Part shown: positions 5,130-24,174 of the stretch, piece by piece
Layout: each line of letters starts with the position of its first letter
Position numbering within the stretch: position 1 is the first letter of the stretch
Source of the DNA: a virus
Strand: one strand, 5' to 3'
Length of the DNA: 24,174 bases
Virus record (IMG/VR): IMGVR_UViG_3300020172_002670
Location: 1 to 24,174 of that record
Made by a program: the position numbers and the translations under genes
The notes under the pieces: generated by a model
Database searches by the model: none
Seen by the model: only the letters and a program-made list of their open reading frames with translations
What the model was told of the DNA's origin: nothing

Positions 5130-5131
5130 CC

Positions 5132-6998: not shown

Positions 6999-7005
6999 TC
7001 TAGAC

Positions 7006-7196: not shown

Positions 7197-7206
7197 GCTC
7201 TGCATG

Positions 7207-7235: not shown

Positions 7236-7253
7236 TCCTTCGAATCACATCAA

Positions 7254-7679: not shown

Positions 7680-7681
7680 TC

Positions 7682-8893: not shown

Positions 8894-9017
8894 TCTGGAT
8901 CAAAAAGCAATCGTTCTGCTGCTAGCAACAAAAAGCTTGAGTGGACCTTATTGCGATACGCGTAAGAAAAACTTCTTCAAGACTCTCGCCAAGACCCTTT
9001 ACAAAATCTTCGACTGA
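8877..9017 (+). CDS. Very small basic protein (46 residues) inside the AAA+/VWA operon
   Basis: An open frame from ATG 8877 to TGA 9015-9017, bridging the gap between the 403-residue protein and the MoxR ATPase. It overlaps the first by 17 bases and the second by one base (TGATG), a tight coupling that supports reality. The product reads TSNLDQKAIVLLLATKSLSG, then a cysteine and a lysine-rich helix (RKKNFFKTLAKTLYKIFD). It could be a small regulator of the ATPase or simply a coupling peptide. No homologue recognised. Confidence 0.65.
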   Translation: MTLTSNLDQKAIVLLLATKSLSGPYCDTRKKNFFKTLAKTLYKIFD

Positions 9018-10201
9018 TGAACGACACTCTCTTTGCAAACCTTCAAGGCTTCCGCTCTTCACTTAACACCAGCTTCCTGGAGCGAGAAGACATTGTCGAC
9101 GGACTTCTGGCTTCGCTCATCACTAAACAAAATTGCTTCTTGTTTGGATTGCCTGGTACGGGTAAATCCGAATTGGTGCGGGCTGTTTCGAACGGATTCA
9201 AAGGATCTCAGTTCTTTGGTTATCTGCTCTCGCCCACAACGGACCCGAGTGAACTGTTTGGCCCAGTTGCAGTTTCGAAGCTTCTAAAAGATGAGTATGT
9301 TCGTGATGTGTCTGGATACTTACCTAGTGCCAACATTGCATTCTTAGATGAGTTGTTCCGTGGTAGTTCTGCTGTACTTAACTCTCTCCTGACTATTCTC
9401 AACGAGCGTATCTTCAACAACGGTCGTGAGGTAATCGAAACTCCGATTCAATCAATCGTTGCTGCTACGAATAGTTTCCCTCAAGAGGAATCTCTTCAAG
9501 CCTTCTGTGATCGATTCTTGTTTAGACCGACAGTAGATCTTCTCAAGAAACCCACATCGAAGCGCACGCTTGACGCATGGGCACTCGGTCTTAAGGACAG
9601 ACCGACCGTTACGTCAGGTCTAACTTTCGAAGATCTTCAAAAGTTACAACAAGAAGTTGTATCAATCAAAGCTAGCGATGAGTTTCTTGATTCTTTCTCG
9701 CAAGTAATTGACCTTCTGGCCACGCGGGGGATCGCGATCAGCGACCGCCGCCGAGTTCAGATTCTTAAGTTCCTGCGTGGTTGGGCGCTTGTGCAAGGAG
9801 ATGAAGAACTCTATCCAGAGCACCTGCACAGATCCTTAGTGCACATTGTGTACCAAACACAAGATGATGTACAAGTAATCAAGGAAGTTCTAGAGCAAGC
9901 AGTACCTACAGCAGAGCGTCTCCTGGAAAGCATTAAGCGTGCTCACAGCGGGATCCTGACGGAATACCACGCGGTTCACTCACAAGAATCTAAAAGCGTA
10001 GAGGATCTGAATCGGCTGGTAGGTAAGCTGCGAAAGATGCACCGTGATCTGGATACACTCTCTAACAAACTAGACAACATCTTAGAATCAGGTCAGTATC
10101 GAATCAGTGCAGGTGCTAGACAAACTGCTACCAAGCTCGCCCAAGCAATCGAATCCTCCTCTCAATCTGTAGCTACATCCATCTCGAACCTCTCCTCATG
10201 A
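9017..10201 (+). CDS. MoxR-family AAA+ ATPase, RavA-like
   Basis: A 394-residue ATPase that should form hexamers and remodel protein complexes. Walker A is GLPGTGKS (44-51), Walker B NIAFLDELF (106-114), followed by LNSLLTILNERIFNNG, sensor 1 in VAATNSFPQEES (Asn152) and DRFLFR (165-170) with the arginine-finger region. The FLDE-x-x-x-x-x-x-x-LN-x-LLT-x-x-NER-x-F-x-NG signature and ATN-x-x-P-x-E-x-x match E. coli RavA and its relatives better than CobS or GvpN. The usual C-terminal LARA domain of RavA is not evident; residues 295-394 are coiled coil instead. It is fused by a four-base overlap (ATGA) to a ViaA-like VWA gene, the classic MoxR/VWA pair. Confidence 0.85.
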   Translation: MNDTLFANLQGFRSSLNTSFLEREDIVDGLLASLITKQNCFLFGLPGTGKSELVRAVSNGFKGSQFFGYLLSPTTDPSELFGPVAVSKLLKDEYVRDVSGYLPSANIAFLDELFRGSSAVLNSLLTILNERIFNNGREVIETPIQSIVAATNSFPQEESLQAFCDRFLFRPTVDLLKKPTSKRTLDAWALGLKDRPTVTSGLTFEDLQKLQQEVVSIKASDEFLDSFSQVIDLLATRGIAISDRRRVQILKFLRGWALVQGDEELYPEHLHRSLVHIVYQTQDDVQVIKEVLEQAVPTAERLLESIKRAHSGILTEYHAVHSQESKSVEDLNRLVGKLRKMHRDLDTLSNKLDNILESGQYRISAGARQTATKLAQAIESSSQSVATSISNLSS

Positions 10202-11739
10202 AAACAAACACCGAGTTCCTCCGCCTGATAAACAACGAACCTTTGGTTCTTGCTGTTTCTCCACTGTCGGACTTCCTGTGGGATGACTTTGTTCGGGACA
10301 CTCGGCCAATCGTTAAGTATCTGGAGGATCGATACAACATCAAACAGCTCTCTCGTTTCGGGAAAGAGTTGTTTGATTTCCTGTACAACGGCGGTCAATG
10401 CACTACGGTCATCACTCTGGATGAAGCTGAAACGTACTTTCGTGCGAAACAGAACGGCCAGAACCCAGAGTTCCCGAAGGGTTACAAGCCTGAATCAGCT
10501 TTTTGGGTGAGCCTATTCATTCAAGTGTGTGAGTCACCGGCATGGCCACGGCTGATGGGTCTTTCGGTCGGCGACCAGTTCACTGCAGGAAACAATGCTG
10601 TCAGTGTGCTCAATGAACTGAGTGAAGTAATCGAATCTCAAATCGAACAGGGGATTCTTGACGTCGCACTATTGGCAGACGCAGGCAAAGAGCTGCAGGA
10701 CATCCGAGAGCAGTTCATGGCCGCTAAAAAAGAAGGGGATAACACAAAGGCAGCTCAACTCCGCCAGAAAGGAAAGGAGCTAGGTCAGCAGCTCGAAGAG
10801 TCTGTCCAACGAGCAGGCGAAGCTCTCCAGCCACAGGTGGATAAAGCGATTGATAAAGCGCACCAAAGCGCTAAGGACACTCAGGAAGCAATGAGCCAGC
10901 TTGCTGGTTCCGAAGCAGGGAGGGGCGTGGCGCTGAACGACCTGGAGCAGAAACGCAAGCTTGCACGGAGGCTTAGTGCAAACCCTGGCCTTAAGCAACT
11001 GGTCCGGAAGTTAGGTGCACTGCGTCAAGCTTGGGCGGATCGGAAGCGTGCACGTAAAGCACAGACAAAATACAGTGACATCGTTGGAGCGAAATTCTCT
11101 GATGAAGTCATCAAAGCGTACCCAGCTGAGATTGCGCTAGCTGCCACAGAGCAAGGGCGTGCCTTATTTGCTCTCAAGTACAGCCAAAAGACTCTGCTCA
11201 CTAAGGACTACGAAGCAAAAATCAAAGAGCTCGATAAAGGTCCTGTTGTTATGTACATTGACATCAGCGGATCGATGGCGGGTGAATCAGAGCTCTGGTC
11301 GAAAGCTATGGCTTATGTCATCGCAGAGGAATGCTTGAAGCAAAACAGGGCAACACACATTCACCTATTCGACACGGTGGTTCAGAAAAGTATTCATCTA
11401 GAGAAAGACAGAGCCGACAACGAAAAGCTTCTGAACTTTGTTCTTAGCTGGACAACGAAAGGTGGAACTTCGTTTTGTTCCGTCATCGATCACGCGCTCG
11501 CAAAGATTAACTTTGTTGAGAAAGCAGACATACTGATGATAACTGACGGCAATGCAGAGGTGTCAGATCCATTTGTGCGCCGCTTGAACGCGTTCAAACA
11601 GGAACACGGCGTGCAGTGGAACAGTTTCTGCATCGGAAGACAATCACGTGTCCTGAAAGAGTTCAGTGATAATGTACACACTGTAGATCCTTCAGACGAT
11701 CCGAGTAGTGCCGAACTGTTTCAAGAAGCGATGCGGTAA
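10198..11739 (+). CDS. ViaA-like VWA-domain protein
   Basis: A 513-residue partner of the AAA+ ATPase. Residues 1-150 are helical; 150-300 are long charged helices (KGKELGQQLEESVQRAGE). At 305-345 a segment with EVIKAYPAEIALAATEQ and LLTKDYEAKIK resembles the linker of ViaA (E. coli YieM). The C-terminal von Willebrand A domain has an intact metal site: DISGS (355-359), GGT (Thr424) and MITDGNA (Asp450). VWA partners of MoxR ATPases recruit substrates to the hexamer, so the pair probably acts as one chaperone-like machine. ViaA is about 480 residues, close to this length. CobT or CbbO-type identity is less likely from the motifs but cannot be excluded. Confidence 0.85.
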   Translation: MKTNTEFLRLINNEPLVLAVSPLSDFLWDDFVRDTRPIVKYLEDRYNIKQLSRFGKELFDFLYNGGQCTTVITLDEAETYFRAKQNGQNPEFPKGYKPESAFWVSLFIQVCESPAWPRLMGLSVGDQFTAGNNAVSVLNELSEVIESQIEQGILDVALLADAGKELQDIREQFMAAKKEGDNTKAAQLRQKGKELGQQLEESVQRAGEALQPQVDKAIDKAHQSAKDTQEAMSQLAGSEAGRGVALNDLEQKRKLARRLSANPGLKQLVRKLGALRQAWADRKRARKAQTKYSDIVGAKFSDEVIKAYPAEIALAATEQGRALFALKYSQKTLLTKDYEAKIKELDKGPVVMYIDISGSMAGESELWSKAMAYVIAEECLKQNRATHIHLFDTVVQKSIHLEKDRADNEKLLNFVLSWTTKGGTSFCSVIDHALAKINFVEKADILMITDGNAEVSDPFVRRLNAFKQEHGVQWNSFCIGRQSRVLKEFSDNVHTVDPSDDPSSAELFQEAMR

Positions 11740-11792
11740 AGCACAGACCGCATAAACCAGGTTTAAATTAGGCAGCAAATGCTGTCTTTAAA

Positions 11793-12221
11793 GTGAACCG
11801 ACAAGCTGAAGCAGCGGCCATCAAAAGACTAGAGGCGGAGTATTCTCCAGCAACGGAAAGATTCGAGCTTGAAGACTGGATCGCTACTCAGTTATTTGAC
11901 ACATACCACGGGTTGACTGGAGGTGACTCGGCATTATTTAGGTTTAGGGAAGCAGTTATTATTTATATCCCAGCGACAGAGCTGTTCAATATAACAGTAT
12001 TAGTAGACAAAGACATAGTGGAATCTTGTATCCTCCTCAAGAATTTTCTACACAAGAACTACGGGGTAAAGAAGCTGAGTAATAAAGCTGACGTAGAGAT
12101 GGCTTTAATGCTTAGTGAACATGACTTTGAACTGATGTCAATGCAGATCGTGACTGACATGCTCGGCTGGTATGACGTCATAACACTGGCGAAGGAGGTG
12201 CTGACTAAGAAACTTCAGTAA
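11793..12221 (+). CDS. Hypothetical acidic protein (142 residues)
   Basis: Starts at GTG 11793, 53 bases after the VWA gene; no Shine-Dalgarno and no ATG in frame nearby. The protein has a helical, charged N-terminus (EAAAIKRLEAEYSPATERFE), then beta-like stretches (FREAVIIYIPATELFNITVL) and a helical C-terminal half (LLKNFLHKNYG, later TDMLGWYDVITLAKEVL). It may be part of the AAA+/VWA operon since no terminator is clear in the gap; a small CAGCA/TGCTG inverted repeat (11773-11784) with only two bases between the arms is present. No family recognised. Confidence 0.65.
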   Translation: MNRQAEAAAIKRLEAEYSPATERFELEDWIATQLFDTYHGLTGGDSALFRFREAVIIYIPATELFNITVLVDKDIVESCILLKNFLHKNYGVKKLSNKADVEMALMLSEHDFELMSMQIVTDMLGWYDVITLAKEVLTKKLQ

Positions 12222-12301
12222 CTGAAACCTTAAGATAATCTGAAGTATTCAGGCGTTCGTGCATTGGAAAGATAGGCTTCTCTTGTTCCACCTTTCATTA
12301 C

Positions 12302-13114
12302 ATGAACTTCAAGTTCAAAATCGGCGAAACCAGTCTTGACAACAACGAAGCTCGCGCTCTGTTGAGTGCCGCAGGTCGTGAGAGCGCAATTGTCGTCGAC
12401 ATTGCCGAGCACGTTGATCTAACAATGATTGACGCCAAAAAGCTCTTCTCCATCAGCGTGGCAACGAAGAATCCCACGCTGGCATCCTTAGCTGCACGCT
12501 TCGCTATCGAGGGTGTTGAAACACCTAAGAAACGTACGTACACACGTACGGATGCTAATCGAATCTCAAGGATTGAGGTTAAAGAAACTTTCAACCACCC
12601 TGCTCAGGTAATCGAGGCTCTCTGTAAAACGACGAGCCTGAAATCGATCGGAGCAGCCATGATCCTGGAGGGTGTGTCTGACGGCAACAGCCGTACCTTG
12701 CGGCAGATCGCCACTACCTGCATCAACGCTATGGCTTATCGGGGTTCTGTAAGCCCTGACTCGCAATGTTTTATGGGTTTTGTTAAAGACGCAGACGGGC
12801 ACTACAGAACCCTGAACCAAGGACCTAACACCCCTCGGTCCATCTGCTACCACGCGTCACCCGTATACAACGCTATCCGGGACGGCGCCGCTCTCCTTAA
12901 GGAGTGGGGGTTGATCGAGATGAACGAAACGATCGAGTTTGGTAGTAAAGACAAAGATATGGATGAGAACAGCCGCCAACTGCGCCGGACTGTTTACGCT
13001 GTGTCTCCTACTGCGATGGGCCAGAAGGTAGCGCACGAATGGGGCGACATCGCTGACTTCATCAGTCACCGTTGGAGCAGCCGTATTCGTGACAGAAGGG
13101 TCTACGCTGCTTAA
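12302..13114 (+). CDS. Possible DNA-binding protein with C-terminal winged-helix signature
   Basis: A 270-residue protein of unknown function, ending just before an intrinsic terminator. The N-terminal third (SLDNNEARALLSAAGRESAI) is helical, with a segment ending in basic PKKRTYTRTDANRISRIEV. The C-terminal part reads VYNAIRDGAALLKEWGLIEM, then RRTVYAVSPTAMGQKVAHEW, a pattern of helix, 'L-L-K-E-W-G-L-I-E', strand pair and helix that is common in winged-helix regulators. A DNA-binding or replication-control role is inferred. It follows an 80-base gap without an obvious promoter. Conserved cysteines are not arranged as a zinc site. Confidence 0.65.
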   Translation: MNFKFKIGETSLDNNEARALLSAAGRESAIVVDIAEHVDLTMIDAKKLFSISVATKNPTLASLAARFAIEGVETPKKRTYTRTDANRISRIEVKETFNHPAQVIEALCKTTSLKSIGAAMILEGVSDGNSRTLRQIATTCINAMAYRGSVSPDSQCFMGFVKDADGHYRTLNQGPNTPRSICYHASPVYNAIRDGAALLKEWGLIEMNETIEFGSKDKDMDENSRQLRRTVYAVSPTAMGQKVAHEWGDIADFISHRWSSRIRDRRVYAA

Positions 13115-13140
13115 AGCTTCATCCGACAACCTCAATAACG

Positions 13141-13163
13141 GGGCGTCGCAAGGCGCCCTTTTT
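13141..13163 (+). terminator. Intrinsic terminator before polA
   Basis: GGGCGTC (13141-13147) and GGCGCCC (13152-13158) form a 7-bp stem with one T-G pair and a GCAA tetraloop (GNRA type), followed by TTTTT (13159-13163). It lies 27 bases after the stop of the 12302 gene and eight bases before the start of polA, so polA probably needs read-through or a promoter inside the preceding gene. Confidence 0.85.
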
Positions 13164-13170
13164 AAGTCAC

Positions 13171-15060
13171 ATGCAGATTCGTTACATCACAAGCAACAGC
13201 GACTTTCAAGAAGCACTGAGGGAACTGCAGCTAATCCCCAAAGTGTGCCTTGACTTCGAGACAACCGGCCTGGACTCCCACGTGGCCAAAGCTCGACTAC
13301 TTCAGCTGTGCACAACAGAAAACATAGAAAGAACAGTATATGTTCTGGACCTGTTTAAAGTAACTGATATTGCTGGGTTGAAGGAGTTCATAGAAAGCCG
13401 TGAGATGCTTCTTGGTCATAATTTAAATTTTGACTTTCAGTTTTTACTATCGCTAGGTATCGACTACAAAGGAAAAGTATTCGATACATATGTGGCCGAG
13501 CGCTGTCTAAGAGCAGGGTTCAAAGAGAAAAAGGTAAGCCCAAAGCTACAGAAACCTTACTTCGATGACGTCAGTTGTTCGTTGAAGGCAGTTGTAGAAA
13601 GACGTTTAGAGATTGAGATCAGTAAAGAACAACAGGTGTCTGACTGGAGTAAGCCTGAGTTGGATATTGCGCAGATTGAATACGCAGCAAAAGATGTTGA
13701 CTTACTTCCTCTGATCGCGGCAGATCAACTTAAAGAGCTAGCAGAAGAAGCTTTGCTTGATGTTTACTCGCTTGAGTCCAAGTGCGTACGCCCTGTAGCG
13801 CAAATGTGTCACAAGGGATTTAACGTAGATGTTACTAAATTAATAGCCCTGAAGCATACAGTTGAGAAAAAACTAGATGATATTACTTTAGAGTTTTGCA
13901 CTAAGCTTGACCACGCTCTCCCAGAAGACCTGAAGCTGCCGAGGAGTATCGATGGATCACTGGCAATTGGAAAAAACTTACGCAAAGAATTTAATCCTGG
14001 ATCTGGCGTACAGTGCACAAAATGTTTCGAAGCACTTGGCGTTGCGCTACCAACAAATCCAGGAACAGGAAAGAGCACTCTTAATCAGATCCAGCTCGCG
14101 GAGTTCGATTCGGATGACCCACTTCTCAACCTCTACAGAAAGCGAACAAAAATCGAAACTCAGTTAGAGCATGTAGAAAAATTGATCGCAAACATAAACC
14201 CCATAACGCACAGAATACACTCAGGTTACAACCAGTATGGGGCTAACTCAGGAAGATTTACTTCAAGCGGAGCTAAAAAAACAACCGCAAAAAAAGTAAA
14301 GAACCAGTTCGCTATCAACGCACAGCAGATCCCCAGAGACAAAGAGTTCAGGGAATGTTTCGTAACCACGCCAGGGCACAAACTGATCATCTGTGACTTT
14401 AGTCAGATCGAACTCCGCCTCGGCGCCGAGCTGATTGGAATTCCGCAAATGATTGAAGCGTTCAAGCAAGGGCACGATCTACATACAGTTACCGCAAGCT
14501 TGATCTACGGGGTACCTCTGGAAGAAGTTCAGAAAAACCAAAGGCAAGAAGGTAAAACACTTAACTTCGCGTTACTGTATGGCATGGGCTTCCGTAAGTA
14601 CAAAACTTACGCAGCCCAGAGCGGCAAAATTATCTCTTTGTCAGAAGCGAAAGTAGCTCACACTGCGTTCCACAGCGCTTACCCTCGTTTAAGACAGTGG
14701 CACCGGGAGCGTGCTGCAATGGTCGAAGACGGTTGGACCTTTGTTAGGACACCATTGGGCCGGAGACGTCTCCTCTCTTATTCAGATGCGACCATGACTG
14801 CCTGTGCCAATACGCTTATACAAGGGGCTGGTGCTGATATCCTGAAGCTGTCCTTAGCGAAGCTCAGTCCTTTTTTGGGTGATGAAGCTTACTTGATCGC
14901 CTGCGTCCACGATGAAATCGTTTTAGAAGCAGTAGAAACAAAGGTCGAGTACTACAAAGAAGTACTTGAGCGCTGTATGAAAGAAGCTGCTGAAACGATT
15001 TTGAAAGAGGTGCCAGCGAAAGCAGACGCTAGTTACGGAGAAACCTGGTCCGAAAAATGA
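13171..15060 (+). CDS. polA: Phage DNA polymerase I (family A) with 3'-5' exonuclease
   Basis: A 629-residue replicative polymerase. The N-terminal third is a DEDDy 3'-5' exonuclease: LDFETTGL (Asp28, Glu30), GHNLNFDFQF (Asn84, Asp88), IEYAAKDVDLL (Tyr171, Asp175). The polymerase core carries motif A CDFSQIELR (Asp409), motif B RQEGKTLNFALLYG (Arg458, Lys462, Phe466, Tyr470) and motif C VHDEIVLE (His580, Asp581, Glu582). The 5' nuclease domain of bacterial Pol I is absent, as usual in phages. Phe466 occupies the position of E. coli Phe762, which affects nucleotide discrimination. All catalytic residues are present, so it should be active. ATG 13171 follows a terminator; the next gene overlaps by four bases (ATGA). 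Confidence 0.97.
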   Translation: MQIRYITSNSDFQEALRELQLIPKVCLDFETTGLDSHVAKARLLQLCTTENIERTVYVLDLFKVTDIAGLKEFIESREMLLGHNLNFDFQFLLSLGIDYKGKVFDTYVAERCLRAGFKEKKVSPKLQKPYFDDVSCSLKAVVERRLEIEISKEQQVSDWSKPELDIAQIEYAAKDVDLLPLIAADQLKELAEEALLDVYSLESKCVRPVAQMCHKGFNVDVTKLIALKHTVEKKLDDITLEFCTKLDHALPEDLKLPRSIDGSLAIGKNLRKEFNPGSGVQCTKCFEALGVALPTNPGTGKSTLNQIQLAEFDSDDPLLNLYRKRTKIETQLEHVEKLIANINPITHRIHSGYNQYGANSGRFTSSGAKKTTAKKVKNQFAINAQQIPRDKEFRECFVTTPGHKLIICDFSQIELRLGAELIGIPQMIEAFKQGHDLHTVTASLIYGVPLEEVQKNQRQEGKTLNFALLYGMGFRKYKTYAAQSGKIISLSEAKVAHTAFHSAYPRLRQWHRERAAMVEDGWTFVRTPLGRRRLLSYSDATMTACANTLIQGAGADILKLSLAKLSPFLGDEAYLIACVHDEIVLEAVETKVEYYKEVLERCMKEAAETILKEVPAKADASYGETWSEK

Positions 15061-15953
15061 GTGACACCAAAAAGCGCCAACGAACTCTCTCACCCAGCAA
15101 ACTCAAAATCGGTGACAGAGTAACTCTGGGTATCAAGAACATCACTTGCTACAGTGAGTTCTCCGATCAGAAAGTTAAAGACAAAATTGCTAGCTATGTG
15201 AACAACACACGGCTAGGAACGGTGAAAGAGGTTTTCGTTAAAACGAACAAACGAGGTGATCGGAGGCACTACGCTTCTGTTCTGTGGGACGGAATGAAAT
15301 CGTCGACCGAGCATGAACAGAATCGTCTGAAGGTCCACGAGGCTTCTCTTGTTGCACAGGAGTTAGAGCAGCCTATCAAGGTAGACGTAGTACCCAAGCA
15401 AAGTAAAAAGAAATCAGGAACTGCTGTGACTATCTTCAATCTGAAAATGGTTGAGGGTAAAGAGGTGTTCACTGCGAAGACTGAAAACGGTTACGTTGGT
15501 TGTGCTCGCACAGTCAGTGGAATTTGTTTCACGTCTGACATTTTCTCAAGTGCACTGGAGGCAGCTAACAAAGCACGAAGCTTAAAGAGGCTCCTGGAGA
15601 ACCCGACAGAGCAAGATTGTAAAGAAACCAAAAAAAAGACAAAAGAAACTACGAAATGTGTAGTCAAGAAAACTAATAAAAAGGTAACCTTAAGGTCGAG
15701 ACTGTACACACTCGACGAGACCAAGGCGATGCCGCTCCTGCGTTTCCAAGAGGTGTGGGTAATAATCAAGGATTTGATGTTTGTAAGCGAATGCTTAGAT
15801 AAAGAAAGACGGAACTTAGTGAGCTACACACCGAATAAAGAGAAGGCTATGTACTTCACATGCCACGAGAAAGCTAAAATGACAATGCGAGTGCTGAAGA
15901 GCACCGTGGGCCCTGGGTTTGACCTTAAAAGGTTTTTTATCGAGAATAAGTAG
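15057..15953 (+). CDS. Lysine-rich protein with N-terminal SH3-like fold, unknown
   Basis: A 298-residue protein coupled to polA by an ATGA overlap. Residues 15-95 (LKIGDRVTLGIKNITCYSEF, then LGTVKEVFVKTNKRGDRRHY and VLWDGMKSSTEHE) have the strand pattern of a small SH3-like or KOW-like barrel. A lysine-rich, probably disordered linker (ETKKKTKETTKCVVKKTNKK) separates it from a C-terminal domain of about 85 residues. The linker is encoded partly by a run of eight A bases (15630-15637), a possible slippage site. The basic charge and polA linkage suggest nucleic-acid binding; function not known. Confidence 0.65.
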   Translation: MSDTKKRQRTLSPSKLKIGDRVTLGIKNITCYSEFSDQKVKDKIASYVNNTRLGTVKEVFVKTNKRGDRRHYASVLWDGMKSSTEHEQNRLKVHEASLVAQELEQPIKVDVVPKQSKKKSGTAVTIFNLKMVEGKEVFTAKTENGYVGCARTVSGICFTSDIFSSALEAANKARSLKRLLENPTEQDCKETKKKTKETTKCVVKKTNKKVTLRSRLYTLDETKAMPLLRFQEVWVIIKDLMFVSECLDKERRNLVSYTPNKEKAMYFTCHEKAKMTMRVLKSTVGPGFDLKRFFIENK

Positions 15954-15978
15954 AATTTAAGGACTGGGGTTTTTACAA

Positions 15979-16242
15979 ATGGCGGTCAGGTACGCGGGTG
16001 ATTACTTCGGGATCTCCTTGGCTGACTCGGGAGGTAAGTCCTCGGTTCTTTTGGATTACTACCCGGAGCTGCGGTCTCCAGCAAAAAAGTCTGAGGCATC
16101 TCCCACGGGGGCTCGTTCCGTGGGAGGGGCTGAAGCTGCAAAGGTATTTACCGGATTTAAAACCTTCGAAGAAAAACAGGGGCCTAAAGCCGCTGCTCCT
16201 GTGTTCTCGGGATTCAAAACAATCGAAAAACCAAAACCGTGA
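15979..16242 (+). CDS. Short protein with two FxGFKTxE repeats
   Basis: An 87-residue protein, ATG 15979. After a folded-looking start (MAVRYAGDYFGISLADSGGK) it becomes Ala/Pro/Lys-rich with a repeated motif VFTGFKTFEEK and VFSGFKTIEKP, about 20 residues apart. Such repeated short motifs in disordered regions often bind a partner protein. A competing frame at 15998-16270 exists, but its composition (many Trp, Arg and Cys) is worse. Inside the gene lies a strong 9-bp hairpin (16100-16126). Function unknown. Confidence 0.6.
   Translation: MAVRYAGDYFGISLADSGGKSSVLLDYYPELRSPAKKSEASPTGARSVGGAEAAKVFTGFKTFEEKQGPKAAAPVFSGFKTIEKPKP
16100..16126 (+). other. Strong hairpin inside the 15979 gene
   Basis: CTCCCACGG (16100-16108) pairs perfectly with CCGTGGGAG (16118-16126) across a 9-base loop. 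It lies within codons for TSPTGARSVGG-like residues. No T-run follows, so it is not an intrinsic terminator; it may be an mRNA regulatory element or a protein-binding palindrome. Confidence 0.5.
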
Positions 16243-16288
16243 CGAGCCTCGTACAAACGTCTACGCTTGAACGGTTACCGGAAAGAGA

Positions 16289-16426
16289 GTGGTGAAACTT
16301 TTTAAAAAGCTGTTGGAGGGTAGGCTCGGCAGGTGGCTGAACCTCTACCCAATATTTGCCGCTAACGAGGAAGACCGCAGGCGTATCTTAGAAGCGGCCG
16401 ATTTCCTACCCAACGATGTCTACTAG
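16289..16426 (+). CDS. Very small protein (45 residues)
   Basis: An open frame from GTG 16289 (or GTG 16292) to TAG 16424-16426, with GAAAGAGAG just in front as a weak Shine-Dalgarno. The product reads VKLFKKLLEGRLGRWLNLYP, then IFAANEEDRRRILEAADFL and PNDVY: a basic amphipathic helix followed by an acidic one. It overlaps the next gene by 11 bases. Coding character and the fit between neighbours support it; no family is recognised. Confidence 0.6.
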   Translation: MVKLFKKLLEGRLGRWLNLYPIFAANEEDRRRILEAADFLPNDVY

Positions 16427-16973
16427 TTACTGCTTAGTACTAGGTAAGGCGGAATGCAGTTTAGAGATAGCCGTTTCGGCTAATGACGCGGGCCACGCGC
16501 AGGCGCAGGCTTCTGATATTGCAAGAGCTCTCCAAGCAGATACGTTCGCTCTAACTTATAAAAGTGTGAATGAAAGTAAGTTATCGTGCTTGTTCAGACG
16601 CTTAGCTACCAGCGACTTCAAGCACGAAGAATGTGATGAGTGGTGGGGCAAGTTTTGTAACAAGTCTCCAGTCATTTACACACTAAAACAGAAATACTAC
16701 GTACGCCCACTAATACTAGATTACCTGGAAATAAATAAGGATGGTTGTGTGAAGCCATCCTGCTCTAACCCATTGTGTGTAAACCCATACCACAATTCTT
16801 ACAAAAAAATGAAGGCGTCGAAACTGGGGGACGCGGACGTGAATTTGGTACTAGCCTTCTCCAGCCGAGGCGTCCCGGCAAGGGAGATCGCCAAAGCACT
16901 CAACGTACACCGCTCAACGATTTACCGGACGTTAAACCGTGAACATTTTCACACTCGGGCTTCGCGTCACTGA
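16416..16973 (+). CDS. Zinc-binding HNH-like protein with C-terminal helix-turn-helix
   Basis: A 185-residue protein with two recognisable parts. Residues 111-126 hold CVKPSCSNPLCVNPYH, the C-x4-C-x4-C-x4-H 'CxNPxH' cluster typical of small phage HNH endonucleases. Residues 139-175 (NLVLAFSSRGVPAREIAKAL, then NVHRSTIYRTLNRE) form a resolvase/Hin-type helix-turn-helix. The N-terminal 110 residues are not assigned. In homing HNH enzymes the catalytic histidine normally precedes or lies in the cluster, and I cannot confirm it. It could be a homing endonuclease or a regulator keeping only the zinc fold. The last 35 bases overlap the SSB-like gene. Confidence 0.7.
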   Translation: MSTSYCLVLGKAECSLEIAVSANDAGHAQAQASDIARALQADTFALTYKSVNESKLSCLFRRLATSDFKHEECDEWWGKFCNKSPVIYTLKQKYYVRPLILDYLEINKDGCVKPSCSNPLCVNPYHNSYKKMKASKLGDADVNLVLAFSSRGVPAREIAKALNVHRSTIYRTLNREHFHTRASRH

Positions 16974-17586
16974 CGGCGCCGATACCGACGAAAACAAAGT
17001 TACTCACGTACTCGCTGAGTCCCTCCCTTCAAGCGACAAACGAGTAGCAACAAAAGTCCAACTCTCAATGAAGGAGGATCATTACGTTGGAAAGATCCTC
17101 AAAACTCTTGAAGAGAATCAAACAATTCTTGCGATTGGTCCAACCAAAACGACTCCTGATGGAGTGCTGCAAATGCAGCCGATGTTGGTTGTCACCGACA
17201 AGAACTGGGATGACTTGCTGGCTGTAAATCTATTTATATCCACGGGTGGTCTTGGTCCTGCCGCTGAAGAGACTCAACTCGGCGACAACACCGTCACCAA
17301 TCGCTCGCTTGCCTGGCAAGACGAAAAGGGAGAAACGGCTTGGTTCAAGCTGACGGCTTGGGACAGCCTCTCTACTCAACTTGCTGAGCTCGCGCCAGGC
17401 ACGCCAACGATTGCCGTGGGTCGAGTCAGCACTTCCGAAAAGGAAGAACGCAAGTATCTTAATTATGGCGTGGAGAAAATTCTCTATCTGCCACGCAGCA
17501 AGAAAGCTGCACCCGCCAAAGCGGCAGACCCCGATAAAGGGCGCGTCTCTACGGCTGCTCTCGGATCACTGGACTTCTCTCTCTGA
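16939..17586 (+). CDS. SSB-like protein, apparently two OB folds in tandem
   Basis: A 215-residue protein starting at GTG 16939, inside the end of the previous gene. The second half has an SSB-type OB-fold pattern: NRSLAWQDEKGETAWFKLTAWD, then LAPGTPTIAVGRVSTSEKEE and YGVEKILYLPRS. The first half shows a similar order: TKVQLSMKEDHYVGKILKTL, then NQTILAIGPTKTTPDG and QMQPMLVVTD. I therefore read it as an internal duplication. An Ala/Lys-rich linker follows, and the tip is SLDFSL, in the place where SSB tails recruit partners. It probably coats single-stranded DNA for the polymerase and primase of this window. No Shine-Dalgarno. Confidence 0.7.
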   Translation: MNIFTLGLRVTDGADTDENKVTHVLAESLPSSDKRVATKVQLSMKEDHYVGKILKTLEENQTILAIGPTKTTPDGVLQMQPMLVVTDKNWDDLLAVNLFISTGGLGPAAEETQLGDNTVTNRSLAWQDEKGETAWFKLTAWDSLSTQLAELAPGTPTIAVGRVSTSEKEERKYLNYGVEKILYLPRSKKAAPAKAADPDKGRVSTAALGSLDFSL

Positions 17587-17595
17587 TTAACAATC

Positions 17596-18426
17596 ATGGT
17601 TTTTATTGCTGGCAAATTCTCGGCTGATGAAATCCTCTGCCAAATTCCGCCTCACACACTCAGGATCGATCTTCAAGCGCGTCGTTGGAAATCCGATAAT
17701 GACCCTGACGCGGCCATCACGGACTCTAACGACAACGGTATACCGATTGAATTCATCCTTCTTGGGTTCACGCCGTACTTCGGTAACCTCGGTATGCGGT
17801 CGCACGAAGAGTTTATTCGTATTAGTTACATTGGTGTCACACCTTCTCATCGTTTGCTTCCTCCACGCTGCGTATGCACTAGCATCATCAGCGGCAAATC
17901 GAGTCAGAAGAACTTTATCTCCTACTTCCAGACGCTCTACAACAACCGGATTAACGTTGGTGAGGTAATCACATCAACTAAATTCGTACAGAAGTCCTTC
18001 AATGAGAGGGACCCGATGACGGGAGCTGATGGAGCCAAGATCAACTACAACGCACTCGAGTTCAAAGATCGGCCCGCGCAAACAGATGAAGAGCGCAAGC
18101 TCATCGAAGACATTGCAGCGTGGCTTGATGCTGGTTCAGGAGATCTGGTGGCATCTGCACTACGTTCTTCTATCCCCGGCTCGAATCTGGTTGAGCTACC
18201 TCTGGGGGAAGACCACGCGGCAATTAAAGAAGCCTTTGTAGAGGCGAACCCTAAGCGTCTAGAGGGGGCAGCACCTGCGGGGTTAGCTGCTCTACCGGCT
18301 GGCGCCGGAACACCGGGGGCTAAACCTGAGGTCTCTGAACCGCCGGCTCCTAAGAAAGCCGCCGCTAAGAAGGAGCTAACAGAAGAGCAGAAAGCAGCTC
18401 TGCAAGCAGCTGGTCTCGATTTCTAA
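17596..18426 (+). CDS. Replication/recombination-associated protein with flexible acidic-tip tail
   Basis: A 276-residue protein nine bases after the SSB-like gene. Residues 1-170 form a mixed fold with beta stretches (NGIPIEFILLGFTPYFGN, then CVCTSIISGKSSQKNFISYF). Residues 225-262 are Ala/Pro/Lys-rich (GLAALPAGAGTPGAKPEVSE) and act as a linker, and the end reads ELTEEQKAALQAAGLDF. The tail layout (flexible linker, last residues LDF) is like SSB proteins and like the end of the protein at 7682-8893. I infer a single-stranded DNA-binding or recombination mediator role from position and tail only; no family is named. Confidence 0.65.
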   Translation: MVFIAGKFSADEILCQIPPHTLRIDLQARRWKSDNDPDAAITDSNDNGIPIEFILLGFTPYFGNLGMRSHEEFIRISYIGVTPSHRLLPPRCVCTSIISGKSSQKNFISYFQTLYNNRINVGEVITSTKFVQKSFNERDPMTGADGAKINYNALEFKDRPAQTDEERKLIEDIAAWLDAGSGDLVASALRSSIPGSNLVELPLGEDHAAIKEAFVEANPKRLEGAAPAGLAALPAGAGTPGAKPEVSEPPAPKKAAAKKELTEEQKAALQAAGLDF

Positions 18427-18447
18427 TCAGATCTTCGCTAAGCACTC

Positions 18448-18476
18448 AAAAGGACGCTCCAGTAGCGTCCTTTTTT
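18448..18476. terminator. Bidirectional intrinsic terminator between the SSB companion and nblA
   Basis: AAAAGGACGCT (18448-18458), loop CCAGT, AGCGTCCTTTT (18464-18474), with the T-run 18471-18476. The stem is 11 bp including the A-T pairs, with a GC core of seven. Because A4 precedes the stem, the minus strand also gets a T-run. It lies 21 bases after the plus-strand stop and four bases beyond the nblA stop, serving both convergent transcripts. Confidence 0.9.
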
Positions 18477-18480
18477 GTGG

Positions 18481-18714
18481 CTACATATCTATGAGATCAC
18501 CAAAAGAAGGGAGGTAAACACCGTATGCGACGCAGTACTCTATGATCTTTTCGAGTATTTTGCCGCGAATCAAGTAATTTGCATATACAATCTCAAGAAC
18601 CTCGCGAGCTTCCTGTGGGCTCAGCTTTTCAAAGCCGTCTAGAAACGCACGGTGCGTAAAGTTCTGCTCAAGAGTCAGGTGTGATTTAAGTTTATCCAGT
18701 AACGATTTAGACAT
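18481..18714 (-). CDS. nblA: NblA-like phycobilisome degradation protein
   Basis: A 77-residue minus-strand protein. Its core reads LTLEQNFTHRAFLDGFEKLS, then PQEAREVLEIVYANYLIRGK and ILEKIIEYC. This is the NblA pattern: L-x-LEQ-x-F-x-x-R-x-F, about ten residues, S-x-x-x-A-x-x-x-L-x-x-x-Y, then an R-x-x-x-x-x-x-I helix. NblA is a small helical adaptor that brings phycobilisomes to the Clp protease. Known phage copies (Microcystis phage Ma-LMM01, Planktothrix phage PaV-LD) are thought to free amino acids or limit light damage during infection. An N-terminal basic helix (SKSLLDKLKSH) and a C-terminal YGVYLPSFGDLIDM tail are extra. Start ATG 18714 lies in the palindrome ACATGT shared with the divergent plus-strand gene; TTG 18720 is in frame but less likely. 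It is one of only two minus-strand genes. Confidence 0.8.
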   Translation of the reverse strand: MSKSLLDKLKSHLTLEQNFTHRAFLDGFEKLSPQEAREVLEIVYANYLIRGKILEKIIEYCVAYGVYLPSFGDLIDM

Positions 18715-19249
18715 GTCCAATTTCTACACCGTTCCTCGCTATGTCTTCGATCCTATCGGGAACAGCAACTTGGTCGAAGGTGTGGTTTTACTGCCTTGCG
18801 ACTTCAGTGGACAGCTGGAAAAACAAATCAGAAAGAAAGGACTGACGGATGTTAGGTCAAACGATAACGAAGAGAACCTTGTAGACCTGGATTGGTGGAG
18901 CACGTACAAGGGCAAAGTGGATTGGACTATTGCAATTACGCAAGGTATGAAAGACTACACAAAATGGATAACAGAATGTGGACTACAGATATCTAGAAAA
19001 GGTGTGTGCATACTAGATCGTCTTACGTTCTTAGAGCCCACACGGGCTCGAGAAGATTTCTTACAGGACTCTTCTCTCACAAACATTAAGATTCTGAGCC
19101 CCAGACCTTCATTTCGTGCTGATGGTACAACTGCAAAAGATCCTGTGACTTCTGCGTGGTTTGTTTTTCAGAAGGCAGGAGCGGCTGCTGTCAATACACA
19201 AATAGATTTCGAAGTAGGCTGGCACCGCCCTCAAGACCTAAAGCTGTGA
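18713..19249 (+). CDS. Dam-like N6-adenine methyltransferase fold with degenerate motifs
   Basis: A 178-residue protein. The order of elements matches small phage Dam-type methyltransferases. VVLLPCDFSGQLEKQIRKKG sits where 'D-P-C-x-G-x-G-x-x-x-x-x-L-x-x-x-G' binds SAM. VRSNDNEENLVDLDWW matches the 'TND...LDA' region. VDWTIAITQGMKDYTKWI stands where '(D)W-x-V-TNPPF' catalyses. CILDRLTFLEPTRAREDFL and ILSPRPSFRADGTTAKDPVT...AWFVF complete the fold. The SAM-loop Asp-Pro/Gly pattern and the NPPF motif are both changed (LPCDFSG, ITQG), so it is probably catalytically inactive or altered; perhaps a DNA-binding or protective decoy. Its ATG lies in ACATGT, shared with nblA. Confidence 0.6.
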   Translation: MSNFYTVPRYVFDPIGNSNLVEGVVLLPCDFSGQLEKQIRKKGLTDVRSNDNEENLVDLDWWSTYKGKVDWTIAITQGMKDYTKWITECGLQISRKGVCILDRLTFLEPTRAREDFLQDSSLTNIKILSPRPSFRADGTTAKDPVTSAWFVFQKAGAAAVNTQIDFEVGWHRPQDLKL

Positions 19250-19566
19250 GCAAGCGCCTGTACAAGCAGCTCGATCATCTTATTGAACTTCAAAAAGAGC
19301 AGAACATATTACTAGATAAAATCAGTGCGCTGCTTGTCGGTCAACAGCTTTTGACTGAGTGCGTCGATTATCAAGGCAATCCACGCTCGCCAGAAGACTG
19401 CGCGGACATTACTATCGAAAGTTTCTCTGCTGCCCTCTGCCTGATGTCTGAGCTCGAGCAACGCAATAGGGATTATCAGTATCAAAAGCAAGAATTCTTC
19501 CTCGGTGGTGATGCCGAGGAGGATGAAGACGAAGACGAAGGAACTATGATCTCAAGTTCATTCTAA
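19246..19566 (+). CDS. Coiled-coil protein with acidic tail
   Basis: Start chosen at GTG 19246, overlapping the upstream stop by four bases (GTGA); an open frame further upstream would overlap the previous gene by about 90 bases. The 106-residue product has a coiled-coil N-terminus (LYKQLDHLIELQKEQNILLD), a middle segment with DYQGNPRSPEDCADITIESF and a highly acidic stretch DAEEDEDEDEGT before SSSF. Acidic tails of this kind often mimic DNA or bind basic partners, which would fit the neighbouring DNA enzymes; this is inference. Confidence 0.65.
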   Translation: MSKRLYKQLDHLIELQKEQNILLDKISALLVGQQLLTECVDYQGNPRSPEDCADITIESFSAALCLMSELEQRNRDYQYQKQEFFLGGDAEEDEDEDEGTMISSSF

Positions 19567-19592
19567 GCTGAGAAAGAATTGACACCTTTATT

Positions 19593-20372
19593 GTGTCCGA
19601 TACTCGCGTAACGGTTAATGGTTTAAGGCACTACGTTTGTAACGGCGTACCAAAACCCCTACCCTCAGTAACCTCGATCCTCAGCGCAACGCAGACAGAA
19701 GCCACGCGGGCAAAGCTGGCTCACTGGAACGCGTTAAATCCAGGAGTTGCCGACGCAGCAGCTACTAGAGGAACTTGGATTCACAACAGCGTCGAAGATT
19801 ACTTAAAAGGGCTCCGAGTAATACCATCAGAGCAATACAAACCGTACTGGGAGGGTGTACCAGAACTTCTGGACGATCTTCTGGAGGGAGGGCGTGTTCT
19901 GTGGTCGGAAAAACCTTTTAATCAGCCGCGTTGGGCTAGATACGTTGGTGACGACGGTGTCGGCAGAATTCATTATTACGATGAGAAGACAGGACACGGC
20001 TATGCAGGGTGCTGCGACCTCATTTATATGAATTCAAACGCTGAAATTATCCTTGCCGACTTCAAGACTAGCAACGGACCTTACTCAGCCCGTTTCCCAA
20101 ATAAAAACCAGAACATCGACGAAAGAACTCGTAAGGCTCTCATATCCGGTGTATTTAGAACTAAAAAGACACGACTTCAACTGGCTGCTTACAAAGCAGC
20201 TGCAGAAGCTTGCCTAGGAATTAAAATTAGTAAAACACAAATTATTGTCACTACGGCAATAAAAGAGTTCAATACTCAGATATTTACGTTTGGAGGTGAA
20301 GAAATAGAAAAAGACGAAGAAAGTTGGTTCCAAGTTGTCAAACAGTACTACGAACTAAACCCGGCAGCGTAG
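19593..20372 (+). CDS. PD-(D/E)XK nuclease, RecB/MGME1-like exonuclease
   Basis: A 259-residue nuclease of the PD-(D/E)XK superfamily. Visible motifs: LPSVTSILSATQTEATRAKL (23-42), RGTWIHNSVEDYL with His64, GYAGCCDLIYM (Asp142), EIILADFKTS (Asp156-x-Lys158) and LQLAAYKAAAE (Gln197, Tyr200). The early 'PSVTxIL' and 'RGTxxH' blocks are typical of MGME1/RecB-like phage exonucleases of about 250-300 residues. Substrate is probably single-stranded or end-processed DNA with metal-dependent cutting. Start GTG 19593; a TTGACA at 19579 has no -10 at normal distance. It lies ahead of the primase-helicase, so a replication or recombination role is likely. Confidence 0.85.
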   Translation: MSDTRVTVNGLRHYVCNGVPKPLPSVTSILSATQTEATRAKLAHWNALNPGVADAAATRGTWIHNSVEDYLKGLRVIPSEQYKPYWEGVPELLDDLLEGGRVLWSEKPFNQPRWARYVGDDGVGRIHYYDEKTGHGYAGCCDLIYMNSNAEIILADFKTSNGPYSARFPNKNQNIDERTRKALISGVFRTKKTRLQLAAYKAAAEACLGIKISKTQIIVTTAIKEFNTQIFTFGGEEIEKDEESWFQVVKQYYELNPAA

Positions 20373-20474
20373 AATCAATCGCACCGGAAGGCAGGCGGGT
20401 CCTGGGTTCTTCAACTTTTCTTAGGCTCCAAAAGCCCCAAACCAGGTCATACTAGAAGCGCTCAGCGACAACCC
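20373..20474 (+). promoter_or_regulatory. Leader of the primase-helicase gene
   Basis: A 102-base gap without a gene. CCTGG (20401-20405) and CCAGG (20442-20446) can form an outer stem, with GGCT/AGCC (20424-20427 with 20433-20436) inside it; there is no T-run. A CATACT at 20448-20453 could be a -10, but no -35 fits. A structured leader or weak promoter is possible. Confidence 0.3.
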
Positions 20475-23246
20475 ATGAAGTTCATTTGCTCTGTAAACCT
20501 CGGGGTGGTCCCGCACCTGCACCCCGAGCTGGGCAAGATCGCTGATGGCGGAAATTTCTCAGCTTTCAACTCGAACTGGGATGCTTGCGAGCTGTCCACG
20601 GGGGAGCTTGCGTCTGTTTTAGGCCAGCAAGCAGGTCTCTGCGCCTGGCATATGCAAGATGGTAAGAGACAAAAAAATTCGACTGGGGTTATAAAAGCTG
20701 GTCTGATCATTGTCGATATCGATAACCAGGCAGATCATAAAGATAAAGACGGCAACAAAGTACAAAAACAGGAGCTAACTGTAGAGCAAGCTCTAGAACT
20801 TGATATCTGTAAGAAGTATCTCACGCTTGGGTATTACTCGCCGTCCACGCGGGAAGGTTGGCCTCGGTTTCGTCTGGTCTTTGGATTAGAGACTACGGTC
20901 ATCAACGCTAATTTCTACCAGTGGTTCTGTAAGCAGATCTATTCGCAGATTCCCGGTTCGGATATACGAGCAACTACCGTACCGAATCTTTTTTATGGTC
21001 CAAAAAATAAAGAAGCTATTTTCGCAACACCAGGTAAATACATACCTAAAGAAAAAATCTCTGAAGCCATCAGAGCATTTGCTGCGCTTCCTGCTGACGA
21101 AACTGATTTAGGAGGTGACCCTTCTGAATACTTAAACCAGGTAACTATCAGAGAAAATGGGATGGACCTGGAAAGGCTCGTCTCGAATACTGTTCGGTCT
21201 GTCCTTGAAGGTGAAGAGGTTGGGGACCGCAGCTCAACCATGGCTGCAGTATTTAAAGAGCTCTTAGGTTGGGCCAACTGGTGCGAGTCAAATAAAATCG
21301 CTTTATGTGTCTCACCCTTGACAGTAGCGCATCGTGCGTTCTATAACATATATGGCTATCCGCACGACATCGATGGTAAATTCGACCGCATCCTCAATTC
21401 GATCAGAAACCCGGAAGAACTACTGCCTGCTGTAGCCCTGGCCTCTGAGCTCGGCGAGCTAGGGACCTGGAAAAAGATCAGGCGAATCAGCCGATCTGTT
21501 TTCGACACACACGCTTCCGACGAAGTTAAGGAAGCACTGGTTCAAGCAAAACGAGAAGCAGCTGTTAACGCTGTGCTCGATATGTCTGAATTTGACCTCG
21601 GCGCACCTGAGGTAACAACATCAAAATCAACAACAAAAATTAAACAAAAAACTGAAGACATGAACACACCCTCTACGCCCACGCAACTTGTAAATCTTCA
21701 AGGCGGGACAAAGAATAGAGAATTTTCTGAAAACGATGTAGCTGATATTATCGTTACAAATCAAGGAGATCAGTTTATATACGACAGCTACTTAGACCAG
21801 TTTTATCACTACGATGAAGACCAAGATATTTGGTATCATCAAGATGAGCAGCACATTAAGCGCCGAATTGTAAAAGCTCTCGATTCTTTTGTAACAGCTG
21901 GCGTGTTGTCTAAGTACAACGCAGCCATGATCAACAGTGTATTTTCAATCCTGAAAGCTAAACTGCTTCGCTCAGCTGACGGAGGGCGTAGAAGTATTTG
22001 GACAAAGGCTCGTGGTTGTATACCTTTTAAAAATGGTGTTCTGGATACGACGACTCTTGAGTTCGAGGAAGGGCGTCACAAAGAACTTTATCTGCGTCAC
22101 AAACTACCTTATGAATATGACGCCAGAGCTCAGTGCCCCGAGTTCATGCGCTGGATTACCTCTGCACTGGATAAAGGGCAAGAGGTTTTAATCCAGGCTT
22201 TTGCTCGTGCTTTGCTAACTGGCTACACAGCTGGTGAAAGGTTTTTGCACTTAGTCGGTCCTGGAGGTACCGGCAAGTCAACCATGCAGCAGCTGATGGT
22301 AGCTCTCGCCGGTTTCCACGGCACTCACACCTCAAGTCTTGAGGTGATCGAAACTAATAAGTTTGAGAGCTATAACCTCATAGGTAAGAAACTTTTACTC
22401 CTTACCGACGAATCAAACTACAACCGTCGAATGGACGTTTTGAAGAAGCTGACCTCAGCTTCTGATACGCTTCGCGCAGAACGAAAGTACGGAAAAGAAA
22501 TCATCAGTTTCAAGCCAGAATGTCTGGTTTGTATTGCGAGTAACGAGCACATCACATCTAACGATTCGAGTAGTGGTTTAGAGCGGCGACGCCTGACCAT
22601 CGTGATGGATAAGGTTGTAGATCCTAGTTTGCGTAAAGAACTAATCAGCGTATTCGACGATCGGATCGAAGGTGCTTTTGTTCCGGAGATGAGCGGGATT
22701 GTGACGTGGGCTTTGTCAATGCCTTATGTCACGATGAAGGACGTTCTGGCAAACCCAACAAAACACGTTCCGTCTTTAAACAAAACAAATATCGAGGCGC
22801 TTCTTTTCAATAATCAATTTGTGGCATGGCTTCACGACTGCTGCCTGTACGCGCCTAACAGTATTACTCCTGTCGGTCAGGGTGCGAGGAAACCAAATAC
22901 AGACGAAGCTGAAAAGGGCATGTATGTAGCCAACGCTTATGGTGCTCTGTATCCTAGCTACGCTAACTTCTGTAAATCATGCGGCTACAAACCTGCGGCG
23001 AAACATCGTTTTGTCGAAAGAACTAAGGAGGCTATGACAAACATCTTGAAAGTACCAAACGTAAAAGTAGTGTTAAATGATGGCATTCCTGGTATAAAGG
23101 GGCTTCGGATCAAGGCTTTTGACTTACAATCCGACCGCGCGGCTAAAGGACCTGACCGACTGCCTTCTCCCGTGGAGTTCGCTCAGGACATGAACAGCAC
23201 TCGTTGGGACACAGCTTTTCAAAAACATGACCCGGTCAAATCCTAA
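20475..23246 (+). CDS. Bifunctional primase-helicase: AEP-like N-terminus, D5-type SF3 helicase
   Basis: A 923-residue protein, the largest of the window. The N-terminal quarter has GLIIVDIDNQ (Asp81-x-Asp83) and YYSPSTREGWPRFRLVFGLE, the layout of archaeo-eukaryotic (PrimPol-like) primases; the usual S-x-H is replaced by an STR sequence, so priming activity is not assured. Residues 350-410 are a charged linker. From about 450, a D5_N-like region (FIYDSYLDQFYHYDEDQDIW) leads to a superfamily 3 helicase: Walker A GPGGTGKST (595-603), Walker B LLLLTDE (Asp645, Glu646), and CLVCIASNEHITS (Asn690) followed by ERRRLTI. It should unwind and prime DNA for PolA. The next gene overlaps by 20 bases. 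Confidence 0.92.
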   Translation: MKFICSVNLGVVPHLHPELGKIADGGNFSAFNSNWDACELSTGELASVLGQQAGLCAWHMQDGKRQKNSTGVIKAGLIIVDIDNQADHKDKDGNKVQKQELTVEQALELDICKKYLTLGYYSPSTREGWPRFRLVFGLETTVINANFYQWFCKQIYSQIPGSDIRATTVPNLFYGPKNKEAIFATPGKYIPKEKISEAIRAFAALPADETDLGGDPSEYLNQVTIRENGMDLERLVSNTVRSVLEGEEVGDRSSTMAAVFKELLGWANWCESNKIALCVSPLTVAHRAFYNIYGYPHDIDGKFDRILNSIRNPEELLPAVALASELGELGTWKKIRRISRSVFDTHASDEVKEALVQAKREAAVNAVLDMSEFDLGAPEVTTSKSTTKIKQKTEDMNTPSTPTQLVNLQGGTKNREFSENDVADIIVTNQGDQFIYDSYLDQFYHYDEDQDIWYHQDEQHIKRRIVKALDSFVTAGVLSKYNAAMINSVFSILKAKLLRSADGGRRSIWTKARGCIPFKNGVLDTTTLEFEEGRHKELYLRHKLPYEYDARAQCPEFMRWITSALDKGQEVLIQAFARALLTGYTAGERFLHLVGPGGTGKSTMQQLMVALAGFHGTHTSSLEVIETNKFESYNLIGKKLLLLTDESNYNRRMDVLKKLTSASDTLRAERKYGKEIISFKPECLVCIASNEHITSNDSSSGLERRRLTIVMDKVVDPSLRKELISVFDDRIEGAFVPEMSGIVTWALSMPYVTMKDVLANPTKHVPSLNKTNIEALLFNNQFVAWLHDCCLYAPNSITPVGQGARKPNTDEAEKGMYVANAYGALYPSYANFCKSCGYKPAAKHRFVERTKEAMTNILKVPNVKVVLNDGIPGIKGLRIKAFDLQSDRAAKGPDRLPSPVEFAQDMNSTRWDTAFQKHDPVKS

Positions 23247-23796
23247 TCTGGTAATTGCTCTGGCTGCTACTGCGGCAGTCGGCGTCGCCACAGCTCTCAC
23301 AGCTCCCCAGTTTGTGGGGGCTCCCTTAGCTTTTGCAGGCGGTTTAATCGGAGGCGCCGGGATCGGGCGGGAGCGTGCACTACGTAAGCAGAAGGTCGAT
23401 GAGGCCTCCACACGGGTGACCTCCTGTTTCACCGCTCTGTATGAATCAAATCGCGGAATCGTCGATCCAGCTCAGCTTGGACTTTTGGCGAATATTTCCG
23501 GCGAACAAGCACACGCGTTTTTAAATAATTTGGCTGAGACCACGAACGGTCAAAAAATTACCGTCAGACAGGGAGGAGGGGTGGTTTTTGCTTTCCCTCA
23601 CTCGCAATCGGCACTCGATGAGTTAACTGCAAATGCTAGGAAGTGGGCAGAAGCGCAAACGCAGCAACTTACTGCTGAGCTGAATCAACACAAACAAGCT
23701 CTGCAATACATGCAACTTCAACAAGCAGCGGCAACGGCTCCTAAGTCACCAGCTCCTATTAGTGAGATTAGCCCTTGGGAAAATGTAAACCCTTAA
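23227..23796 (+). CDS. Membrane-anchored protein with winged-helix-like middle
   Basis: A 189-residue protein, ATG 23227, overlapping the primase-helicase by 20 bases. The first 50 residues are Ala/Gly-rich and hydrophobic (LVIALAATAAVGVATALTAP, then FAGGLIGGAGIGRERAL), enough for one or two membrane helices. Residues 58-115 (STRVTSCFTALYESNRGIVD, then LANISGEQAHAFLNNLAETT and VVFAFP) read like a small winged-helix domain. A Gln-rich coiled coil (TAELNQHKQALQYMQLQQ) and a Pro-rich tail follow. It may tether replication proteins or a nucleoprotein complex to the membrane; that is only an idea from layout and position. Confidence 0.6.
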   Translation: MTRSNPNLVIALAATAAVGVATALTAPQFVGAPLAFAGGLIGGAGIGRERALRKQKVDEASTRVTSCFTALYESNRGIVDPAQLGLLANISGEQAHAFLNNLAETTNGQKITVRQGGGVVFAFPHSQSALDELTANARKWAEAQTQQLTAELNQHKQALQYMQLQQAAATAPKSPAPISEISPWENVNP

Positions 23797-23822
23797 AAAC
23801 TATAAGTATTAAATCATTCTAT

Positions 23823-23852
23823 TAGATCTACACACTACGAGGTTCAACAATG
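23823..23852 (+). repeat. Leader repeat, copy 1
   Basis: A 30-base block (TTAG-A, then the 26 bases TCTACACACTACGAGG + TTCAACAATG at 23827-23852) including the start codon of the following gene. GAGG at 23839-23842 lies seven bases before ATG and is a credible Shine-Dalgarno. The same 26 bases recur at 24076-24101, with one difference in the flanking four. Confidence 0.85.
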
Positions 23853-24074
23853 ACTGAAGAACAGCTAGATGCTTTGCGTCATCTGATTAAACAAGAGATC
23901 GACGCTGCCCGGATCGACGGTATGGAACACGGTGCATGGGGGTGGGCAGATAAACAATTAGAAGAAGGATGGCGAGATCTTAAAGCTAGCTTTAACGAAG
24001 CTCGTGCTCTAAGTGCACTCACAGATCTTTATGCCAATAACGACAAGGGATTGAAAGATCTGGCTAACAGTTAG
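23850..24074 (+). CDS. Small acidic helical protein (74 residues)
   Basis: Starts at ATG 23850 after the repeated leader with a GAGG Shine-Dalgarno. The product is helical and acidic: TEEQLDALRHLIKQEIDAAR, then HGAWGWADKQLEEGWRDLKA and FNEARALSALTDLYANNDKG. The pair of tryptophans in an otherwise charged protein suggests a compact helical bundle. Not recognised. The next gene follows after 24 bases with the same leader. Confidence 0.7.
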   Translation: MTEEQLDALRHLIKQEIDAARIDGMEHGAWGWADKQLEEGWRDLKASFNEARALSALTDLYANNDKGLKDLANS

Positions 24075-24101
24075 TTCTACACACTACGAGGTTCAACAAT
24101 G
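24071..24101 (+). repeat. Leader repeat, copy 2
   Basis: TTAG-T followed by the same 26 bases as copy 1 (24076-24101), ending in the ATG of the last, truncated gene. The repeat therefore precedes two consecutive genes and includes their Shine-Dalgarno and start codon. Confidence 0.85.
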
Positions 24102-24174
24102 CGACGCTATCTCCGAAGCCTTGCCCACCATCCTGGACTATTTTATGCGTCTTTTTTCACAGCTATGGGTGCAG
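24099..24174 (+). CDS. Partial gene, N-terminus of a possibly membrane protein
   Basis: The start of a gene running out of the window: ATG 24099, then MRRYLRSLAHHPGLFYASFF followed by TAMGA at the window end. The basic start followed by hydrophobic/aromatic residues (GLFYASFFTAMGA) suggests a membrane segment. The start is supported by the repeated leader with GAGG. Nothing more can be said from 25 codons. Confidence 0.55.
   Translation, partial: MRRYLRSLAHHPGLFYASFFTAMGA

Follow-up and report, generated by a model that had tools for sequence, protein, structure and literature searches.

In cyanobacterial hosts, NblA serves as an adaptor between ClpC and phycobilisome proteins (PMC7966870), and its C-terminal end has been reported to bind phycobiliproteins (PMC4103541). 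The gene is also carried by phages, including the freshwater phages Ma-LMM01, MaMV-DC and PaV-LD as well as marine and estuarine phages, and those phage NblAs that have been tested caused a loss of phycobilisomes when expressed in cyanobacteria (PMC9602691, PMC4103541). The marine and estuarine examples come from cyanopodoviruses and cyanomyoviruses (Nadel 2019; S-SCSM1, described in PMC9602691). The initial annotation of the locus studied here, which placed nblA in a few freshwater cyanophages, was therefore right that the gene is known in phages but outdated as to its range (PMC9602691). As described, the marine and estuarine genes encode divergent phage NblAs, some of them estuarine, and in this they resemble the gene considered below.

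The window, the whole stretch of viral DNA that was analyzed (24,174 nucleotides; IMG/VR record IMGVR_UViG_3300020172_002670), has an nblA-like open reading frame on the minus strand at 18481–18714. It encodes 77 residues (18484–18714), with its ATG starting at 18714 and its stop codon at 18483–18481; the coordinates originally assigned were correct, stop included, and the residues quoted with them are present. An NblA pattern over about 50 residues had been proposed, and the profile search bore this out: the protein matched Pfam NblA (PF04485) over residues 13–57 with 28.1 bits (E 2.8e-6), above the curated cut-off of 25 bits. This core domain (18544–18678, minus strand) has the pattern LTLEQxF...R.F...L..E..E.L...Y....R and corresponds in a profile match to residues 6–54 of host NblA. 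All 21 distinct close homologues also matched NblA in Pfam. Close homologues scored up to 35.8 bits, and two divergent relatives were at or below the cut-off (24.9 and 12.8 bits). The NblAs of Ma-LMM01 and PaV-LD, which likewise belong to the phage-borne NblA family, differ in having much higher Pfam scores (51.8 and 46.8 bits).

Profile comparisons pointed the same way. In hhalign, a profile built from 16 proteins of the widened phage family aligned with a profile of 10 host and two phage NblAs over 49 columns (97.4% probability, E 1.5e-11), with about 24% identity between host NblA and the phage family across these columns. When the phage-family profile was searched against all PDB sequences, the top three entries were NblA structures (1ojh, 2q8v and 2qdo), of which only 1ojh was clear (E 0.001). 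A phage profile built without host sequences found matches, many of them weak, in 96 of 386 cyanobacterial genomes. The best of them fell on canonical NblA genes (type MSNSMELSLEQQFNLRSFQTQVDKMSREQAKEFLLKLYEEMLVRENVYKDVLKHQWGLGD), and there the alignment covered the same columns. Simple sequence searches were uninformative: tblastn of the 77-residue protein against 50,697 phage records gave a chance match only, the sole match among cyanophage records was to S-TIP37 (E 0.4), and the 1ojh fragment used as a BLAST query returned nothing. Because both the protein and the 1ojh-fragment searches failed, BLAST is too weak here, and profiles are needed.

The likeness to host NblA (PF04485; 1ojh of Anabaena PCC 7120) comprises the LTLEQxF start, the R and F of helix 1, the L..E...L...Y....R of helix 2 and the two-helix prediction. 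Within the alignment of the family, TxEQxF is invariant and aligns with the corresponding host block. The AlphaFold monomer of the window protein was a helix-loop-helix (helices at residues 21–29 and 33–64; pLDDT 83, pTM only 0.57), in agreement with the two-helix hairpin expected of an NblA. Foldseek searches of the early and late gene models against the PDB gave nothing below E 3 and no NblA match, and we regard such two-helix monomers as uninformative in a search of this kind. The absence of a Foldseek match, together with the modest Pfam score and the location in a replication cluster, could be cited in favor of a short, helical phage protein whose likeness to NblA is accidental or goes back to very remote ancestry and whose role lies elsewhere, for example in replication. 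We consider that explanation very unlikely, given the 97% profile-profile match, the reciprocal retrieval of host NblA and the three NblA entries at the top of the PDB profile search. The assignment to the NblA family is thus backed by the Pfam match, the Pfam matches of the homologues, the host-genome retrieval, hhalign and the PDB profile search, and the gene very probably encodes a divergent NblA relative.

Successive scans of IMG/VR yielded 9, then 41, then 63 loci in overlapping sets; pooled with the window, they amount to 65 loci and 34 distinct proteins of 77–90 residues that fall into three clades. Compared with its nearest relative, the window gene had a dN of 0.040 and a dS of 0.78 (dN/dS about 0.05), and the differences were mostly at third codon positions. 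The low dN/dS and the third-position bias mark the open reading frame as protein-coding and subject to purifying selection. Its orientation, opposite to that of the surrounding genes, might suggest a chance antisense frame of a plus-strand feature rather than a gene. We give this reading practically no credence, as no plus-strand frame is open across the nblA-like frame, and it is refuted by the dN/dS, the codon-position pattern and the 34 distinct homologous proteins.

The phage proteins depart from host NblA at their C-terminus. The window protein, which is also several residues longer at its N-terminus, carries a PxFGDL tail instead of the host KHxWG. This phage-specific tail (residues 66–74, VYLPSFGDL; 18493–18519, minus strand) includes a PxFGDL motif that was present in all 34 distinct phage proteins and missing from the sampled host NblAs; conversely, KHxWG was found in none of the 34. 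The most strongly conserved blocks of the phage family, YANYLIR and PxFGDL, are not host NblA motifs, and the phage-specific YANYxIR of helix 2 is invariant. At the position aligned with host K53, most relatives have K and the window protein has E. In the gene tree, whose small number of columns left it poorly resolved and which served only to judge the coherence of the early and late phage groups (the late group is described below), each of these groups was coherent, and the phage proteins formed one group on a long branch. The gene was not copied recently from a canonical host nblA, as the missing host-type C-terminus and the long phage branch show.

These differences raise the question of cargo. 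The retained LTLEQxF, the loss of KHxWG in 34 of 34 proteins in favor of an invariant PxFGDL tail, and the invariant YANYxIR would all suit an adaptor of NblA fold that kept its ClpC-facing side, acquired a different cargo surface and sends another host or phage protein, or a single phycobiliprotein such as phycoerythrin, to Clp. We view this as rather unlikely. The loss of KHxWG does not exclude normal function, since by alignment the NblA of PaV-LD likewise has no host-type C-terminus but reportedly brings about phycobilisome degradation (PMC4103541), and the present data indicate no other cargo. We retain the more conventional reading, in which the gene product is probably a phage-encoded NblA family member that dismantles host phycobilisomes through ClpC/Clp. 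Counting against it are the missing KHxWG end, the E at the K53 position, the non-host conserved blocks, the Foldseek result, the relatives at or below the Pfam cut-off and the promoter searches described below, which found no site for nblA.

The phage lineage was examined through a relative of the window. An 85-kb relative (G001) has 20 proteins in common with Synechococcus phage S-EIV1, versus one with PaV-LD and none with Ma-LMM01, making S-EIV1 (KJ410740) the closest isolated relative among the phages compared and placing PaV-LD and Ma-LMM01 in different lineages. The primase of the window also had its best phage-record match in S-EIV1. This kinship supports a phycobilisome-bearing picocyanobacterium as the host without reliance on nblA itself, from which the host had originally been deduced. 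Searches of window positions 4200–24174 against 386 cyanobacterial genomes for DNA and CRISPR-type matches gave marginal matches only (84–91% over 32–49 bases) and no host match. Two other features of the window were noted. At 9017–11739, inside the replication cluster, a gene for a MoxR-type AAA ATPase is followed by one for a VWA protein, with best NCBIfam matches to RavA/ViaA that are far below the cut-offs. At 16092–16334 there is a short block in which the nucleotide alignment with two relatives (L007 and L008, 69–75% identical) breaks off.

The nblA-like gene alone runs against its neighbors in this part of the replication cluster, both in the window and in the 85-kb relative. The isolated antisense position described in the initial annotation was to that extent accurate, but a 2-base overlap with the start of the divergent neighbor had been overlooked. 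The two genes share a CATG at 18712–18715, in which the nblA ATG occupies 18714–18712 on the minus strand and that of the divergent gene 18713–18715 on the plus strand. This shared CATG was found in every scorable homologous locus, across all three clades, and was kept even at 44–52% identity (e.g., L172, with the nblA start at 1453 and that of its partner at 1454). Phage nblA genes were already known; the strictly conserved head-to-head start overlap is what is unusual here. The divergent neighbor (18713–19249, plus strand, 178 residues) gave a weak match to a family of phage DNA methyltransferases, and its homologue lies beside nblA in relatives. Its product reads ITQGM at the point where one might look for an NPPY-type motif, and could be a methyltransferase fold without catalytic activity.

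As both genes start on one CATG, there is no promoter between them for either, and each would have its promoter within the other gene or on the far side of it. Transcripts of nblA and its partner that cover both starts would be complementary. A sigma-70 scan upstream of nblA revealed no promoter-like site, and synonymous-site conservation, taken as a sign of an embedded promoter, was not significant (lowest windows p 0.10 for nblA and 0.13 for the partner). On the other side of nblA is a convergent plus-strand gene of 276 residues with no assigned function (17596–18426), which is kept beside nblA in relatives. Between it and the nblA 3' end we identified a stem-loop (18452–18470) followed by six T residues (18471–18476), a predicted plus-strand terminator. 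This hairpin had been called a bidirectional terminator; it is real, but only marginally bidirectional in the window, with six T on the plus side and four on the nblA side. Nor is bidirectionality conserved in the relatives. Of 26 distinct loci, 23 had the T-run on the plus-transcript side, and in the other three an A-run was visible by eye where the hairpin picker had taken another stem; on the nblA side, a T-run was found at one locus of the 26, the window itself. The hairpin (18452–18476) would stop plus transcripts from 17596–18426 before they run antisense through nblA. Separate timing of nblA, as originally suggested from the antisense layout, is possible.

Relatives of the window, which itself ends short of the late region, revealed a second NblA-like gene. 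In three near-complete relatives (84–86 kb) and two contigs (G005 and G008), the early gene was accompanied by a second, weak NblA match 28–31 kb away, in the virion/lysis region. An 82-kb relative (G006) had a low-scoring early gene and a late homologue by tblastn, and a 70-kb contig (G007) had the late gene only, its early region possibly missing because it is a fragment. In both relatives examined in detail the second gene was beside a lysozyme/endolysin-like gene. Late genes were found at 25 IMG/VR loci (L057–L081; other examples are L055:1468–1701, plus strand, and L056:1432–1671, minus strand), with products of the type GLTLEDDFTL... NblA was among the Pfam matches of 15 of 16 members (best E 3.8e-4, below the Pfam cut-off), the family profile matched the host and phage NblA set at 83.5%, and the modeled protein was a two-helix hairpin. 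Based on these profile matches and the model, the late protein is likely a member of the NblA family. A ferritin/Dps-like gene adjoins the late gene at one locus (L055:229–768, minus strand), and S-EIV1 has a related ferritin-like gene. No early antisense nblA turned up in S-EIV1, whose one weak NblA match, at 17.4 bits, lies beside its own lysozyme. The S-EIV1 protein annotated as hypothetical beside the lysozyme (L050:1453–1782) has NblA as its only Pfam match (16–17 bits, below the cut-off); hhalign of the late NblA-like genes against the S-EIV1 match gave no support, the likeness being one of position only.

From homology, we infer ClpC-dependent phycobilisome degradation by the window protein. 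By analogy with host and tested phage NblAs, it would dimerize into a four-helix bundle, and its N-terminal part, which has the L[ST]LEQxF block reported to contact ClpC, would dock on the host ClpC chaperone while its second helix docks on phycobiliproteins. Host Clp protease would thereby take the phycobilisomes apart in the infected cell, so that amino acids are released and less light is absorbed. A more elaborate scheme, which we put forward as a speculation with little chance of being correct in full, is that S-EIV1-type phages have two NblA-type adaptors of different timing. The early one would have its start locked head-to-head with a replication-cluster gene, with mutual exclusion by antisense transcription, and would have given up its phycobiliprotein-binding end in favor of a phage-specific tail, thereby redirecting ClpC; the late one would belong to the virion/lysis module.

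Together, these sequence comparisons would extend phage-borne phycobilisome degradation to the relatives of S-EIV1, a lineage of picocyanobacterial phages. The conserved phage tail could show a remodeling of the cargo end of the adaptor. In addition, the locus offers a clean case of two opposite-strand genes with common start codons, in which the timing of the transcripts is directly testable.
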